Source of the DNA: Actinomycetota bacterium
Lineage (GTDB): Bacteria; Actinomycetota; Thermoleophilia; Gaiellales; Gaiellaceae
Length of the DNA: 19,528 nt
Assembly: GCA_013816275.1 (NCBI GenBank)
Contig: JACDER010000002.1
Span: 1-19,528, forward strand
Reading direction: 5' to 3'
The notes beneath the pieces are model-generated. The model saw only the letters and a list, made by a program, of their open reading frames with translations. It did no database searches and was not told the origin of the DNA. The translations under genes and the position numbers were made by a program. Each line of letters opens with the position of its first letter. The first letter of the stretch is position 1. Below, one piece after another: positions 3,921 to 16,351 of the stretch.

Positions 3921-5465
3921 ATCCTGGAGAACGGCGTCATCCGGACGATGGACCCTGCACTGCCGGAAGCGGCTGCGCTCGCGATCGCGGGGGACCGAAT
4001 CGCCGGCGGCGTCGGCACGCACGAGACGGCGCTCGCGAGCCCGGAGCGGATCGATCTGCGCGGCCGGTGCGTCCTGCCCGGGTTCACCGATTCGCACGTC
4101 CATTTCCTGCTCTGGTCGCTCGCTCAGGACGAGGTTCAGCTCAAGGGTGCGCAGACGCTCGAGGAGGCGGTCGCGCGGGTCGCCGAGGCAGCGGCCCAGG
4201 CCCCGCGTGGGGCGTGGGTCCGCGGCAGCGGCTGGAGAAGCGGCGACTGGTCGCCTTCCGTCGAGCCGACGAAGGAGGACCTGGACGCAGTCGCGCCCGA
4301 TTCTCCGGTCGCGCTGATCGCGCGCGACGGCCACTCCCTGTGGCTGAACTCCGCGGCGCTCGCCTCGGCTGACGGCGATCTCCAGGTCGACGGCGGCGTG
4401 GTCGAGAGAGACGAGTCGGGCGATCCGACCGGAGTCCTGCGCGAAGAGTCCGCCTGGGAGTTCCGCAGGGAACGCGTGCTGGCGGCGATCTCCGACGACG
4501 CGTGGGTCGAGCTGATGCGCCCTGCGCTGCGGCTGGCAGCGTCGCGCGGCGTCACCGCGATTCACGACAAGGACGGCTGGCTCGGCGCGCTCCCGCGCTT
4601 CCAGCGGCTCCGCCGGGAGGACGCGCTGCCCCTTCGCGTCTGGCAATCCCTTCCCGCCGCCATGCTGGACGAAATCGCGGCAGTGGGTCTTTCGTCCGGG
4701 CTCGGGGACAACTACCTGCGGGTCGGCTACATCAAGGCGTTCATGGACGGGACGCTCGGGTCGGAGACGGCGCGACTGCTCGACGGCTCGGGCGTCGAGA
4801 TCACCAGCCGGGACGAGCTCGCCGACATCGTCCGGCGGGCCGCGGCCGCCGGCTTCCCAGTCGCCGTCCACGCGATCGGCGATCTCGCCAACCGCGAGGC
4901 GCTCGACGCGTTCGAGGAAACACGCGAGCTGTGGGCTCCGCTCGGCCTGCGGCACCGGATCGAGCACGCCCAGTTGCTGGCCTGGGAGGACGTCCCGCGG
5001 TTCTCCGCCGTCGGCGTCGCCGCCTCGGTGCAGTTCAGCCACGGGCCGTCGGACCGCGACCTCGCCGACCGCATCTGGGCGGGGATGGCGGAGCGCTCGT
5101 ACGCCTACCGGTCGCTCTGGGATGCGGGCACGCTGGTCGCGAACGGCTCCGACGCACCCGTCGAGGAGCTCGATCCGCTCGCGGGCATCTGCGCCGGCGT
5201 CCTGCGAACGCTCGACGATCGCCCGGCCTGGCATCGCGAGCAGGCGCTCACGGTCGAGCAGGCGCTGCAGGCGACGACGGTCAACCCGGCCTGGCTCACC
5301 GGGGACGAGCGGCGGCGAGGCAAGCTCCTGCCCGGGTACCTCGCGGATCTGGTCGTCCTCGACCGCGATCCGCTGTCGTGCGAGCCCGGGGAGCTGCCGG
5401 AGATCTCGATCGTGGCCACGATGTGCGGGGGACGCTGGACGCACAACCCGCCCCCATGGGACTAG
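3918..5465 (+). CDS. YtcJ-type amidohydrolase (Amidohydro_3 family)
   Basis: A 515-aa metal-dependent hydrolase close to the usual length of the YtcJ/N-substituted formamide deformylase group. The N-terminal segment carries the urease-like beta sandwich (ILENGVIRTMDP, then LRGRCVLPGFTDSHVH). The metal-binding HxH is H60/H62. Other candidate active-site residues are K273 (YIKAFMDGTLGS), H318 (VAVHAIGD), H350 (HRIEHAQLL) and D412 (NGSDAPVEELDP). Family enzymes hydrolyse amides or formamides; the substrate here is unknown. It has no signal peptide. GTG 3918 is chosen because the fold begins at once and a -10 box sits 6 nt before it. A 42/43-bp repeat begins 6 bp after the stop codon. Confidence 0.92.
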   Translation: MILENGVIRTMDPALPEAAALAIAGDRIAGGVGTHETALASPERIDLRGRCVLPGFTDSHVHFLLWSLAQDEVQLKGAQTLEEAVARVAEAAAQAPRGAWVRGSGWRSGDWSPSVEPTKEDLDAVAPDSPVALIARDGHSLWLNSAALASADGDLQVDGGVVERDESGDPTGVLREESAWEFRRERVLAAISDDAWVELMRPALRLAASRGVTAIHDKDGWLGALPRFQRLRREDALPLRVWQSLPAAMLDEIAAVGLSSGLGDNYLRVGYIKAFMDGTLGSETARLLDGSGVEITSRDELADIVRRAAAAGFPVAVHAIGDLANREALDAFEETRELWAPLGLRHRIEHAQLLAWEDVPRFSAVGVAASVQFSHGPSDRDLADRIWAGMAERSYAYRSLWDAGTLVANGSDAPVEELDPLAGICAGVLRTLDDRPAWHREQALTVEQALQATTVNPAWLTGDERRRGKLLPGYLADLVVLDRDPLSCEPGELPEISIVATMCGGRWTHNPPPWD

Positions 5466-5470
5466 CACCT

Positions 5471-5513
5471 GTGGACGCGGTGCCAGGCACGCTTGAGGGT
5501 GGTCGAGGGTTGG
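5471..5513 (+). repeat. 42/43-bp repeat, copy 1
   Basis: This unit runs from GTGGACG to GAGGGTTGG and shares all but two positions with copies 2 and 3 (it has C at 5478 and G at 5491 instead of A and C). It contains the core palindrome GTGCCAGGCAC. It begins 6 bp after the amidohydrolase stop codon. The preceding ten bases share ACTAG-NNN-CT with those before copy 2. I do not recognise this family. Confidence 0.85.
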
Positions 5514-5640
5514 GGATTTGTCGCGATTCACGAGCTGATTTCGAGGCCTGGACTGAGAACCAGCGTGCTCGCATCTCGACGCCGCCTGGGACGCTCGACG
5601 AGGGCGGGGCGCTACGCGCGTCCAGCGGGGACTAGAGACT
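5514..5640. other. Non-repeat spacer between repeat copies, with a 41-codon open frame
   Basis: The spacer has no recognisable gene. Reading from the TTG at the end of copy 1 (5510) gives a 41-residue open frame ending at TAG 5633-5635. It has no similarity I recognise and is probably not a gene, or is a gene remnant. It ends in GGGGACTAG, echoing the GGGACTAG at the end of the amidohydrolase gene, so each repeat block is preceded by the same stop-codon context. Confidence 0.4.
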
Positions 5641-5682
5641 GTGGACGAGGTGCCAGGCACCCTTGAGGGTGGTCGAGGGTTG
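5641..5682 (+). repeat. 42-bp repeat, copy 2 (tandem with copy 3)
   Basis: A perfect 42-bp tandem partner of copy 3. The period is 14 codons, so the frame reads VDEVPGTLEGGRGL twice without a stop. It includes the 13-bp perfect palindrome GGTGCCAGGCACC at 5649-5661. Confidence 0.9.
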
Positions 5683-5725
5683 GTGGACGAGGTGCCAGGC
5701 ACCCTTGAGGGTGGTCGAGGGTTGG
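5683..5725 (+). repeat. 42/43-bp repeat, copy 3 (overlaps the GNAT start codon)
   Basis: Identical to copy 2 and directly abutting it. Its last bases GAGGGTTGG supply the TTG start codon proposed for the acetyltransferase at 5722-5724. Its internal GAGGGTGG (5707-5714) could serve as the ribosome-binding site, about 7 nt upstream. Confidence 0.88.
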
Positions 5726-12872: not shown

Positions 12873-13121
12873 CATGCGCCGGCAGGATGGGTCGAGCGGG
12901 ACGGCGCGCTCGAGCGCGAGTTCCGCTTCACGGACTTCACCGAAGCGCTCGCCTTCGTGAACCGGGTCGGCGCCCTCGCGGAGTCCGAGAATCATCATCC
13001 CGACATCTCGGTTCACTGGAACCAGGTGACGCTCCGCTGGTGGACCCACGTGCGAGATTCGGTCACCGAGCGGGACTTCGAGCTGGCCGCCAGGACGAAC
13101 GACCTGGCGGCAGAGCCCTAG
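12870..13121 (+). CDS. 4a-hydroxytetrahydrobiopterin (pterin-4a-carbinolamine) dehydratase
   Basis: An 83-aa protein, a little shorter than the usual 95-110. It dehydrates the 4a-carbinolamine made by aromatic amino acid hydroxylases; other family members also assist in pterin cofactor recycling. WVERDGALEREFRFTDFTEALAFVNRVGALAESENHHPDISVHWNQVTLRWWTH is diagnostic in outline: the HHPD motif (first His near 43) and the later WWTH, followed by TERDFELAART. The GTG start at 12870 fits the short N-terminus and the upstream -10-like hexamer. No aromatic hydroxylase gene is in the window. It ends in CTAG, sharing its stop with the convergent CorC-type gene. Confidence 0.88.
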   Translation: MHAPAGWVERDGALEREFRFTDFTEALAFVNRVGALAESENHHPDISVHWNQVTLRWWTHVRDSVTERDFELAARTNDLAAEP

Positions 13122-14431
13122 CCTTCGGCCGCACGCTCCTCTGCGCCTACGGCCTCGCGATCCTCGTCCGGGAAGGTGACCGTCAGGCCTTGGATGCGCG
13201 TGCCTTCCACCTCGTCGATCTTGAAGCGGATCCCCCCGTGCTCGATCTCATCCCCCGCCTCGGGAGCGCGGCCGAGCTGCCCGAACACAAAGCCCGCGAC
13301 CGTGTGGTAGTCCTCGTCGGGGAGCGTGGTCCCGAGCTGTTCGTTGAAGTCGTCGATCGGGAACGTTCCATGGATGCGGACCGTCCGGTCGTCGAGGCGC
13401 TCGATCGACTCGTCCGGCAGGTCGAACTCGTCCTCGATCTCGCCGACGATCTCCTCCAGCAGATCCTCGAGCGTCACGATCCCCTCCATCGCGCCGTACT
13501 CGTCGAGAACGATCGCCATGTGCTGGTTCTGGGAGCGGAATTCCGCGAGCAGGGCGGCGAGGTCCTTCGTCTCGGGAACCACGAAGGCGTCCCTGAGCAG
13601 CTCTTCGATCCTGACCTCGGCGATGCCTCGGTCCATCAGCGCCGCAAAGAGGTCCCGCACGTGGAGGATCCCCACGATCTCGTCCAGCGAGCCCCGGTAC
13701 ACCGGGTACCGGGTGTACGGCGAGTCCATGACGGCCTCGAGCGCTTCCTCCGACGGAAGGTCGATCGAGAGCGCGACCACCTCCGGCCTGTGGACCATCA
13801 CGTCGGCGGCCTCCTTGTCGGCGAAGTCGAAGACCTTGTAGAGCATCTCCTGCTCCTCCTGCTCGATCTCCCCGTGCCGCTTCGAGCGGTCGAGCAGCAT
13901 CTTCAGCTCGGCCTCGGAATGGACGTCGCCCTCGGCGCCCGGAGGCTCCATTCCCATCGCGTGCAGGATCTGCTCCGTCGCCCAGCGCAGGATCCAGATC
14001 AGCGGCTTGAACAGGATGAAGAAGCCGCGCACTGGGCCCGAGACGGCGAGCGCGACGCGGTCCGAATACCTGAGCGCGATCCCCTTGGGGACGAGCTCGC
14101 CGATCACGACGTGGAAGAAGGTGATGATCAGGAAGGCGAAGGTGAACGAGAGCGCGGTGGCAAGGAACGGGTCGAACAGGTTGGCGAGCACGGGCTCTCC
14201 GACGGCGCCGATGCCCAGAGAGGTCAGGGTCACGCCGAGCTGCATCGCGGCGATGAAGCGCGGCGGGTCGGTCGTGATGCCCATGACCGCGCGGGCGCTG
14301 CGGTTGCCCTGCTCCTCCAGCTCGCGGATGCGCGTTCGGCGCGCCGTCACGAGGCCGTACTCCGCCGCCACGAAGAATCCGTTCAGCAGGATCAGCGCCG
14401 CGACGGCGAGCAGTTCGAGGAAGGTGGTCAC
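13118..14431 (-). CDS. CNNM/HlyC/CorC family membrane protein with CBS domains
   Basis: A 437-aa protein in the usual CNNM order. A DUF21 transmembrane domain spans about 1-160 ([61 protein letters not shown]). A CBS pair lies at about 210-330 ([65 protein letters not shown]). The CorC/HlyC C-terminal domain is at about 345-425 ([35 protein letters not shown]). Family members are linked to magnesium/cobalt homeostasis. GTG 14431 is the start, giving [22 protein letters not shown] about 7 nt upstream is the only ribosome-binding candidate. The gene follows the MBL hydrolase by 53 bp. Confidence 0.95.
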
Positions 14432-14484: not shown

Positions 14485-15411
14485 CTAGGCCGCAGTATAG
14501 GTAACGGGTGTGACGTCTCCTTGCCGCGCGCCGTCGCCGGTAGCGACGAGGCGATCGAGATGCGCCAGCGTCTCGGCGACCGCAAAACGGCGCGGTGACG
14601 GGCCGAGGTTCCCTGGGAAGAGATCGAGCGAGATCTCGTAGCCCGTGCGCGGGTCAGATCCGAGCGCGTCGCTCGTCGCCGCGAGCCGCTCGTGGTGATG
14701 CTCGAGGATCTCGCGCGCGCGGCCTGCCGGATCGTGCATCGGCTCACCGTGCGAGGGAAGCGCGAGCCTGGGAGCGAGCCGCACGGTCCGCTCGAGCGAC
14801 GAGAGGTAGGCGCCGAGAGGATCCGGTGATGACTCGGGGTAGACGCCGACGGCCGGCGTGATGTCCGGGAGGAGATGGTCGCCCGTGAGCAAGACCCCCT
14901 CGCGCAGAAAGCCGACGTGGCCGTCGGCGTGGCCCGGGAGCGCGACGACCTCCCAGGCGTCGACCGAGTCGCCGTCGTCGAGGAGCCGCGGATCGCGCGC
15001 GAAGTGGATCAGCGGGAGGGCCTCGCGGTCTCGCTCGAGCATCGTGTCGACCATCTCGGCGGGCACGCCGTTTCGCCGGAACCAGTCCGCGATCCGTTCC
15101 GGCCAGCCCGGATCCCCCCAGACGAGCTCGCACTGCTCGTAGTCCAGCCGGCCCTGAAAGAGAGGCGCGCCGGTGACGGCGGCCGCGATCTCGCCTCCCC
15201 AGACGTGGTCGGGATGGAAATGCGTGATCACGATCGCGTCGATCGGCTCTCCGAGCTCGGCGCGAAAGAACTCCTCGAGCCCTGGGAGCGCAAGCCCCGT
15301 ATCGACCAGAAGCCTCCCTTCGTCTCCTTCGACCACGTAGCAGTGGACGTGGCCCGGCCTGACCGGGAGCTGGATCGTGAGGCGCGCGATTCCGGGCTCG
15401 ATCTCCTGCAT
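14485..15411 (-). CDS. MBL-fold metallo-hydrolase
   Basis: A 308-aa metallo-beta-lactamase-fold hydrolase. The metal motif THFHPDH at 63-69 gives H64, H66, D68 and H69. Further ligands are in LPGHADGHVGF, LLTGDHLLPD and LPSHGEPM. The length and the C-terminal helical part (REILEHHHERLAA, AVAETLAHLDRLVATG) resemble glyoxalase II-like and LACTB2-like proteins. It may act on a thioester or on nucleic acid, and the sequence does not decide which. The frame is open to 15534, but homology begins at MQEIEPGIARLTIQL, so ATG 15411 is chosen. It is divergent from the radical SAM gene across 43 bp that contain a LexA-type palindrome. Confidence 0.92.
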   Translation of the reverse strand: MQEIEPGIARLTIQLPVRPGHVHCYVVEGDEGRLLVDTGLALPGLEEFFRAELGEPIDAIVITHFHPDHVWGGEIAAAVTGAPLFQGRLDYEQCELVWGDPGWPERIADWFRRNGVPAEMVDTMLERDREALPLIHFARDPRLLDDGDSVDAWEVVALPGHADGHVGFLREGVLLTGDHLLPDITPAVGVYPESSPDPLGAYLSSLERTVRLAPRLALPSHGEPMHDPAGRAREILEHHHERLAATSDALGSDPRTGYEISLDLFPGNLGPSPRRFAVAETLAHLDRLVATGDGARQGDVTPVTYTAA

Positions 15412-15424
15412 GAGGTCATTGTTG

Positions 15425-15446
15425 TATACGAACATCTGTTCGTATA
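15425..15446. promoter_or_regulatory. Predicted LexA (SOS) operator
   Basis: A perfect palindrome: 10-bp arm TATACGAACA, spacer TC, then the exact reverse complement of the arm. The centre, CGAACATCTGTTCG (15429-15442), fits the LexA box CGAAC-N4-GTTCG known from Firmicutes and Actinobacteria. It lies directly before and partly over the TATAAT of the radical SAM gene, the classical place for a repressor. It is also 14 bp from the ATG of the divergent MBL gene and could repress both. Confidence 0.8.
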
Positions 15447-15457
15447 ATGGAGCTGTG
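15443..15457 (+). promoter_or_regulatory. Consensus -10 box and leaderless start of the radical SAM gene
   Basis: TATAAT at 15443-15448 is a perfect sigma-70 -10 and lies exactly 6 nt before GTG 15455. A weak -35 (TTGTTG, 15419-15424) is 18 bp upstream. The GGAG at 15449-15452 is only 2 nt from GTG, too close for a ribosome-binding site. Confidence 0.7.
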
Positions 15458-16351
15458 CGCACCGAGTACCGCGAAGAGCCGTGCAAGTCCGCGCTCAACC
15501 GCGTGCGGGGAATGATGTTCGACTGGTCGCTCAACCCCTACATGGGCTGCGTCCACCAGTGCACGTTCTGTTACGTCCGCGCGTTCGAGCTGCGAGCCGA
15601 CCGGCCGTATGACGACCGCTACGGCACGTCGATCCGCGTCAAGGTCAACGTCGCGGAGGTGCTGCGCCGCGAGCTCGCACGCGCGAGCTGGAAGCACGAG
15701 ACCGTCGCGATCGGCGCGGCGACCGATCCGTACCAGCCCGCGGAGGGCCGCTACCGGCTGACGCGCGCGTGCATCGAGGCGCTATCGGACGCGCACAACC
15801 CGTTCGACATCATCACCCGCGGCCCGCTGATCCTCCGGGACCTGGACGTGCTGCAGGAGGCCGCAAGGCGGGCGAACGTGCGAGTGACCTTCTCTGTCCC
15901 GACGCTCGACGAGCGCGTCTGGCGGACGACCGAGCCGGGAACGGCGCCGCCGCGGCAGCGGCTCCGAGTGCTGAAGCAGCTCGTGGAAGGCGGGATCGAC
16001 GCCGCCGTCGGGATGGCGCCCATCCTCCCGGGCATCTCGGACAAGCCGGAGCTGCTGCGCGAGGTGGTCAAGGCCGCACGTGAGGCCGGCGCCACCGGCG
16101 TGTGGGCCAACGTGCTCAACCTGCGGCCGGGCACCCGCAAGCACTTCCTCGAGCATCTGGCGGAGGACTGGCCCGAGGAGGCGGAGCGCTACGAGCGTCT
16201 CTATGCGCGGCGCGCGTACCTCGGAAAGGACGTGTCCGGGCCGGTGCAGGCGACGATCGCGGAGCTCAAGCGCGAGTACGGCGTGTCGGACCGGCGCAAG
16301 ACGAGGCTCACTCCAGCTCCCGAGCCCGAGCAACTCGAGCTCGCTGTCTAA
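15455..16351 (+). CDS. Radical SAM protein, Rv2578c family
   Basis: A 298-aa radical SAM enzyme. The [4Fe-4S]/SAM motif CxxxCxxC is C32, C36 and C39 in NPYMGCVHQCTFCYVRAFE, preceded by the family's N-terminal EPCKSALNRVRGMMFDWSLNPY. ATDPYQPAEGRYRLTR, FDIITRGPLILRDLDVL and VTFSVPTLDERVWRTTEPGTAPPRQRL follow through the partial TIM barrel. The family is distantly like spore photoproduct lyase (SplB), and its reaction is unknown. I recall that Rv2578c of M. tuberculosis belongs to the LexA regulon, which agrees with the SOS box here. GTG 15455 is chosen from the family start and the -10 position. The 62-aa gene follows after 13 bp. Confidence 0.93.
   Translation: MRTEYREEPCKSALNRVRGMMFDWSLNPYMGCVHQCTFCYVRAFELRADRPYDDRYGTSIRVKVNVAEVLRRELARASWKHETVAIGAATDPYQPAEGRYRLTRACIEALSDAHNPFDIITRGPLILRDLDVLQEAARRANVRVTFSVPTLDERVWRTTEPGTAPPRQRLRVLKQLVEGGIDAAVGMAPILPGISDKPELLREVVKAAREAGATGVWANVLNLRPGTRKHFLEHLAEDWPEEAERYERLYARRAYLGKDVSGPVQATIAELKREYGVSDRRKTRLTPAPEPEQLELAV

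Follow-up and report, generated by a model that had tools for sequence, protein, structure and literature searches.

A predicted LexA operator at the promoter of a spore photoproduct lyase-like radical SAM gene in a Thermoleophilia-like actinobacterium

A palindrome between two divergent genes

The DNA analyzed here (the window: 19,528 nt, positions 1 to 19,528 of contig JACDER010000002.1, assembly GCA_013816275.1) contains a radical S-adenosylmethionine (SAM) gene and a divergent gene for a metallo-β-lactamase (MBL)-fold hydrolase, and the short region between them holds an inverted repeat (Table 1). The 10-bp arms of this repeat, TATACGAACA at 15425-15434 and TGTTCGTATA at 15437-15446, are 100% complementary, and they flank a 2-nt center (TC) that is not self-complementary. 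The original prediction of a perfect 22-bp palindrome is thus accurate for both arms and inaccurate for the unpaired center, so that 20 of the 22 bp pair. The core of the repeat, CGAACATCTGTTCG, is the sole exact copy of CGAAC-N4-GTTCG in the window (0.06 expected; one or more copies in 12 of 200 shuffled windows), and it gives the radical SAM gene the CGAAC-N4-GTTCG site at its promoter that is expected of a LexA regulon member.

The promoter layout agrees with what had been predicted: the coordinates place TATAAT (15443-15448) 6 nt ahead of the GTG start codon (15455-15457) of the radical SAM gene, and the proposed weakness of the -35 element is matched by a consensus scan of 15300-15560 that reported no sigma-70 promoter and by the absence of a consensus -35 element. 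On the other side, the MBL start codon (ATG, at 15411) lies 13 bp from the palindrome and 17 bp from its core. From the analyses described below, we consider it very likely that the palindrome serves the radical SAM gene as a LexA operator, which would place this gene under SOS control.

Table 1. Predicted features in and around the divergent promoter region
Feature	Position	Strand	Basis
Core SOS box CGAACATCTGTTCG	15429-15442	.	Same motif at the genome's own lexA, uvrA and LysM genes
Inverted repeat TATACGAACA-TC-TGTTCGTATA, predicted LexA operator	15425-15446	.	Repeat detection; core kept in relatives
TATAAT, predicted -10 element of radical SAM gene	15443-15448	+	Abuts operator; TANNNT adjoins box in 24 of 28 loci
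Spore photoproduct lyase-like radical SAM protein, 298 aa, GTG start, probably leaderless	15455-16351	+	PF04055; predicted fold
Divergent MBL-fold hydrolase (Lactamase_B and B_lactamase-like_C), probable operator bystander	14485-15411	-	Domain matches; neighborhood tests
CNNM/CBS/CorC_HlyC protein, commonest first divergent neighbor of the radical SAM gene in relatives	13118-14431	-	Domain matches; neighborhood

Conservation of the box and LexA-type sites at other genes

A search for the radical SAM protein in 61 genomes (the window's own and 60 relatives) found it in 41 at E <= 1e-20. Thirty loci were retrieved, the window's own included, and 28 of these were usable after two (L027 and L031) were dropped for having too little upstream DNA. 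A box with at least 9/10 agreement to the motif was present within 100 nt of the gene in all 28 (the window's own and 27 relatives); the background, taken from the named loci with their promoters excluded, was 31 such sites over 398,463 positions. We therefore base the significance of the box on its position and conservation, not on a genome-wide count.

The GAAC and GTTC elements are invariant in the 28 boxes, and the last base is T in 15 loci and G in 13. Since a TANNNT sequence begins on this final T in 14 of the 15 T-ending boxes, the operator appears to give up its final G in favor of the T that opens the -10 element. TANNNT adjoins the box in 24 of the 28 loci (window included), 17 of which have their first in-frame start codon 6-8 nt beyond it. 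Because of this short distance, we propose that the radical SAM promoter is probably an SOS promoter that produces a leaderless transcript.

The genome from which the window derives (1.79 Mb in 342 contigs, 64.55% complete) encodes LexA (TIGR00498, 219.6 bits; cut-off, 110.95), and an exact motif site precedes its lexA gene. Other exact sites are found at the start of uvrA, at the radical SAM promoter and at a gene for a 79-aa LysM protein, where the exact site is joined by a second, imperfect one (L003:1477-1514). Across four relatives there are 34 exact sites in all, and the 31 retrieved include sites at lexA, uvrA, LysM (paired), Y-family polymerase, exonuclease/GIY-YIG and radical SAM genes. 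In three of these relatives exact sites outnumber those of the reversed control motif (G030, 7 vs 3; G018, 8 vs 3; G029, 8 vs 1). Because the same motif is found at the genome's own lexA, uvrA and LysM genes and at SOS-type genes of relatives, we read the core at 15429-15442 as a LexA operator. These comparisons support the original prediction in that the site is of LexA type and that the box of the radical SAM gene is conserved in the lineage, and they answer its question whether the host's own lexA carries the motif in the affirmative.

Two sites have features of their own. In three relatives (L177, L192 and L193) the small LysM-domain gene, which we take to be YneA-like and possibly an SOS cell-division inhibitor, carries a pair of LexA boxes spaced 23-24 bp apart. 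A further exact site in the window's own genome (L001:1501-1514) lies ~116 bp before a sigma-factor-like gene and overlaps the end of an NYN-domain gene; it could reflect chance or an SOS-linked sigma factor.

Beyond the lineage, we sought boxes of at least 9/10 within 150 nt of the gene in the best 80 of 591 confirmed matches in named genomes, with bin names, some of which may be wrong, taken as written and phylum groups assigned from those names. The closest relatives among these 80 are records named Thermoleophilia or Actinobacteria, one of them named Gaiellaceae, and the box is present in 23 of the 26 Actinomycetota loci. In a plasmid collection, six of whose 78 matching records were examined, relatives from Streptomyces and Arthrobacter have boxes of 9/10, and those from Methylobacterium and Sinorhizobium have GTTC-N7-GTTC, the alphaproteobacterial LexA motif, in place of the box. 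At the Eisenbacteria-named locus L113 (822-835) a different palindrome, TGCACATTTGTGCA, lies upstream of the radical SAM gene, and is perhaps that lineage's own repressor site or a product of chance.

The radical SAM protein and its neighbors

The window protein belongs to the radical SAM superfamily, as indicated by a PF04055 match and a CxxxCxxC cluster motif whose cysteines (C32, C36 and C39) are invariant in 41 sequences. Its predicted model has a fold closest to spore photoproduct lyase (SPL), an enzyme with a hydrogen-donor cysteine, C140, beyond its cluster. The two proteins are only distantly similar in sequence (12-14% identity to SPL structures, PDB 4fhc and mutants, C140 mutants among them). 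Besides the cluster, the window protein has only two cysteines, C10 and C106, and no cysteine outside the cluster is invariant in the 41 sequences, as judged by conservation and not by superposition. By this measure no counterpart of C140 is conserved, so the SPL hydrogen-donor step is not kept as such, and the lesion or the last step of the reaction probably differs from that of SPL. The most likely substrate of the enzyme is damaged DNA, on which it would act by radical chemistry.

The best family match is NF038135 (NCBIfam, Rv2578c family radical SAM protein; 279.3 bits over residues 7-277). As this score falls under the curated cut-off of 430 bits, the protein appears to be a relative of the Rv2578c family and not a strict member, which narrows the homology to Rv2578c that had been predicted. 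Rv2578c and PA0069 have both been counted as LexA-regulon entries; literature searches combining either name with LexA returned no match and gave no confirmation for Rv2578c in the M. tuberculosis regulon.

We compared gene neighborhoods at the 52 of 109 tested relatives' loci whose radical SAM gene is of >50% identity. A neighbor was identified in 34 of the 52, and every one of the 34 has the box (four of them duplicate another locus). The first neighbor is a CNNM/CorC_HlyC gene in 18 loci (15 distinct), all with the box. In 13 further loci (12 distinct), each again with the box, an MBL gene is head-to-head with the radical SAM gene, their aligned starts 10-83 bp apart, and the CNNM gene stands behind the MBL gene in 13 of 13. 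The MBL gene is 721-816 bp from the radical SAM gene in the remaining three. Among the 18 loci with neither neighbor, one lacks upstream DNA, and a box of at least 9/10 is present in 11 of the other 17 and absent from six (L092, L095, L096, L105, L100 and L113). Five pairs of loci have identical radical SAM genes (L089/L009, L088/L011, L091/L015, L093/L017 and L114/L029), so the counts over the 61-genome set and the named-genome set are not all independent. The four Rokubacteria-named loci L092, L095, L096 and L105 encode radical SAM proteins 68-71% identical to that of the window, without the box and without CNNM or MBL neighbors; gene transfer with operator loss, or misnamed bins, are possible explanations.

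Elsewhere in the window, a 56-nt repeat occurs three times at positions 5458-5725, with two of its copies belonging to an exact 42-nt tandem, and these repeats surround the start of a reading frame that is acetyltransferase-like by eye.

Alternative readings and comparison with known systems

Several observations weigh against our interpretation. The window's own genome has 7 exact motif sites and 6 for the reversed control, as a result of which the count alone proves nothing and was dropped as proof of a LexA site; relative G019 likewise has 11 exact sites and 10 control sites. Two of the own-genome sites (L004 and L007) could not be tied to a gene, and in relatives some exact sites fall within genes or cannot be assigned to any. 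Across phyla, conservation of the operator holds only in part: among the 80 best matches, a box of at least 9/10 occurs in none of 14 Acidobacteriota, 6 Gemmatimonadota or 5 Rokubacteria-named loci, and its frequency is no higher than 6 of 11 in Chloroflexota/Dormibacteraeota, 4 of 6 in Bacillota and 1 of 12 in the other loci. No shared LexA-like palindrome was seen by eye among 15 loci without the box. The plasmid-collection relatives from Nonomuraea and Tsukamurella reach 8/10 and 7/10. Finally, 20 of the listed recA hits (L068-L087) were scanned between 190 and 610 nt upstream of their Walker A motif, and a canonical box was found at one locus (L069) and not at the other 19. Might a dimeric repressor other than LexA bind the palindrome, then, or might it have arisen by chance? 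The control-level count and the shuffled windows that hold a site (12 of 200) would favor this, but the recurrence of the motif at the genome's own lexA, uvrA and LysM genes and at SOS-type genes of relatives, together with its conservation in 28 of 28 usable promoters, makes it extremely unlikely. The recA gene of G019, beyond the 20-locus set, has a box beginning 132 nt before the matched region. As an observation in its own right, recA in this order is mostly without a canonical LexA box, although lexA, uvrA and others have one; since recA was also not found in the window's own assembly (64.55% complete), the recA branch of the SOS circuit may be different here.

We also considered whether a single LexA operator governs both divergent genes as an SOS module in which the MBL hydrolase is a partner, either a nuclease or a detoxifying enzyme, as the original prediction had suggested. 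The 17 bp between core and MBL ATG and the boxes at all 13 further head-to-head loci are consistent with this proposal, as are three loci (L040, L044 and L047) with no in-frame ATG, GTG or TTG between the box and the conserved part of the MBL protein. The box seems to lie inside the MBL reading frame at these loci, where bound LexA would hinder MBL transcription. However, the box does not travel with the MBL gene. We examined 30 MBL loci from 36 hits, covering 200 nt before and 60 nt after the aligned start, with adjacency judged within the retrieved stretch (<=1,500 bases each side). A box of at least 9/10 was present at 0 of the 19 loci where no radical SAM gene accompanies the MBL gene and at 10 of the 11 with an adjoining one, on which basis we rejected the MBL gene as an independent LexA target. 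Where the two genes are ~770 bp apart (L045), the box stays with the radical SAM gene (L023) and none is near the MBL gene; the 18 loci with CNNM first keep the box too, the distance from box to MBL start varies between loci, and the nearest solved relatives of the MBL protein are MBL-family hydrolases with no repair label. Joint control as an SOS module is therefore quite unlikely. A bidirectional switch is very unlikely in our estimation: where the MBL gene sits between the CNNM and radical SAM genes, LexA would silence both, and because the operator there covers the 5' end of the MBL frame or falls within it, the hydrolase would be a damage-induced partner (a nuclease or nucleotide-detoxifying enzyme) of the radical SAM enzyme, whose target would be some lesion that is not spore photoproduct. 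As the box follows the radical SAM gene and not the MBL gene, we assign the operator to the former; the MBL gene, which seems to have been inserted next to the operator, is probably a bystander on which any LexA effect would be passive. As for the enzyme, it is somewhat unlikely that it is SOS-controlled but modifies RNA, protein or a nucleotide instead of repairing DNA directly.

Under our preferred reading, in which LexA controls the radical SAM gene through the palindrome, dimers of the repressor bound to CGAAC-N4-GTTCG would cover the -10 element and the spacer and thereby block RNA polymerase from a promoter whose transcript would start at the GTG or a base or two away. DNA damage would activate RecA, LexA would cleave itself, and the SPL-like radical SAM enzyme would be made and would then act on damaged DNA through radical chemistry. 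In those relatives where the MBL gene lies between operator and CNNM gene, any effect of LexA on it would probably be passive. On this reading, an uncultured class of actinobacteria joins the groups in which SPL-like radical SAM enzymes are under SOS control, with an operator closely tied to the promoter. Strict conservation in the lineage, along with the different, host-type motif at the two relatives from Alphaproteobacteria, speaks for a role of the enzyme in the damage response outside spores, and as no SPL-like cysteine is conserved, the lesion on which it acts becomes a testable question.

SOS control of such genes has been described in other groups. It was predicted for SplB-like genes in alpha- and betaproteobacteria (PMC3323433) and reported for them in Balneolaeota (PMC7739468) and Bacteroidetes (PMC8565304), and a seven-species analysis that included M. 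tuberculosis counted a radical SAM protein among the core members of the Gram-positive SOS regulon (PMC7739468). In S. venezuelae, a radical SAM gene was induced 19.97-fold by mitomycin C and bound by LexA (PMC9380542). A literature search on LexA in Thermoleophilia found, in titles and the beginnings of abstracts, no account of the SOS regulon of that class, and the relevant passages of the four papers do not mention an operator on the -10 element or a leaderless transcript. As far as those passages go, the published SplB/COG1533 cases share with the window an SPL-like radical SAM gene and a host-type LexA operator at its promoter, and the window differs from them in its uncultured Thermoleophilia-like lineage and in an operator that abuts or overlaps the -10 element of a probably leaderless mRNA. 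As SOS control of SplB/COG1533 enzymes is already known in several phyla, the window adds a case to a known kind, and what is new is its occurrence in the Thermoleophilia-like lineage.
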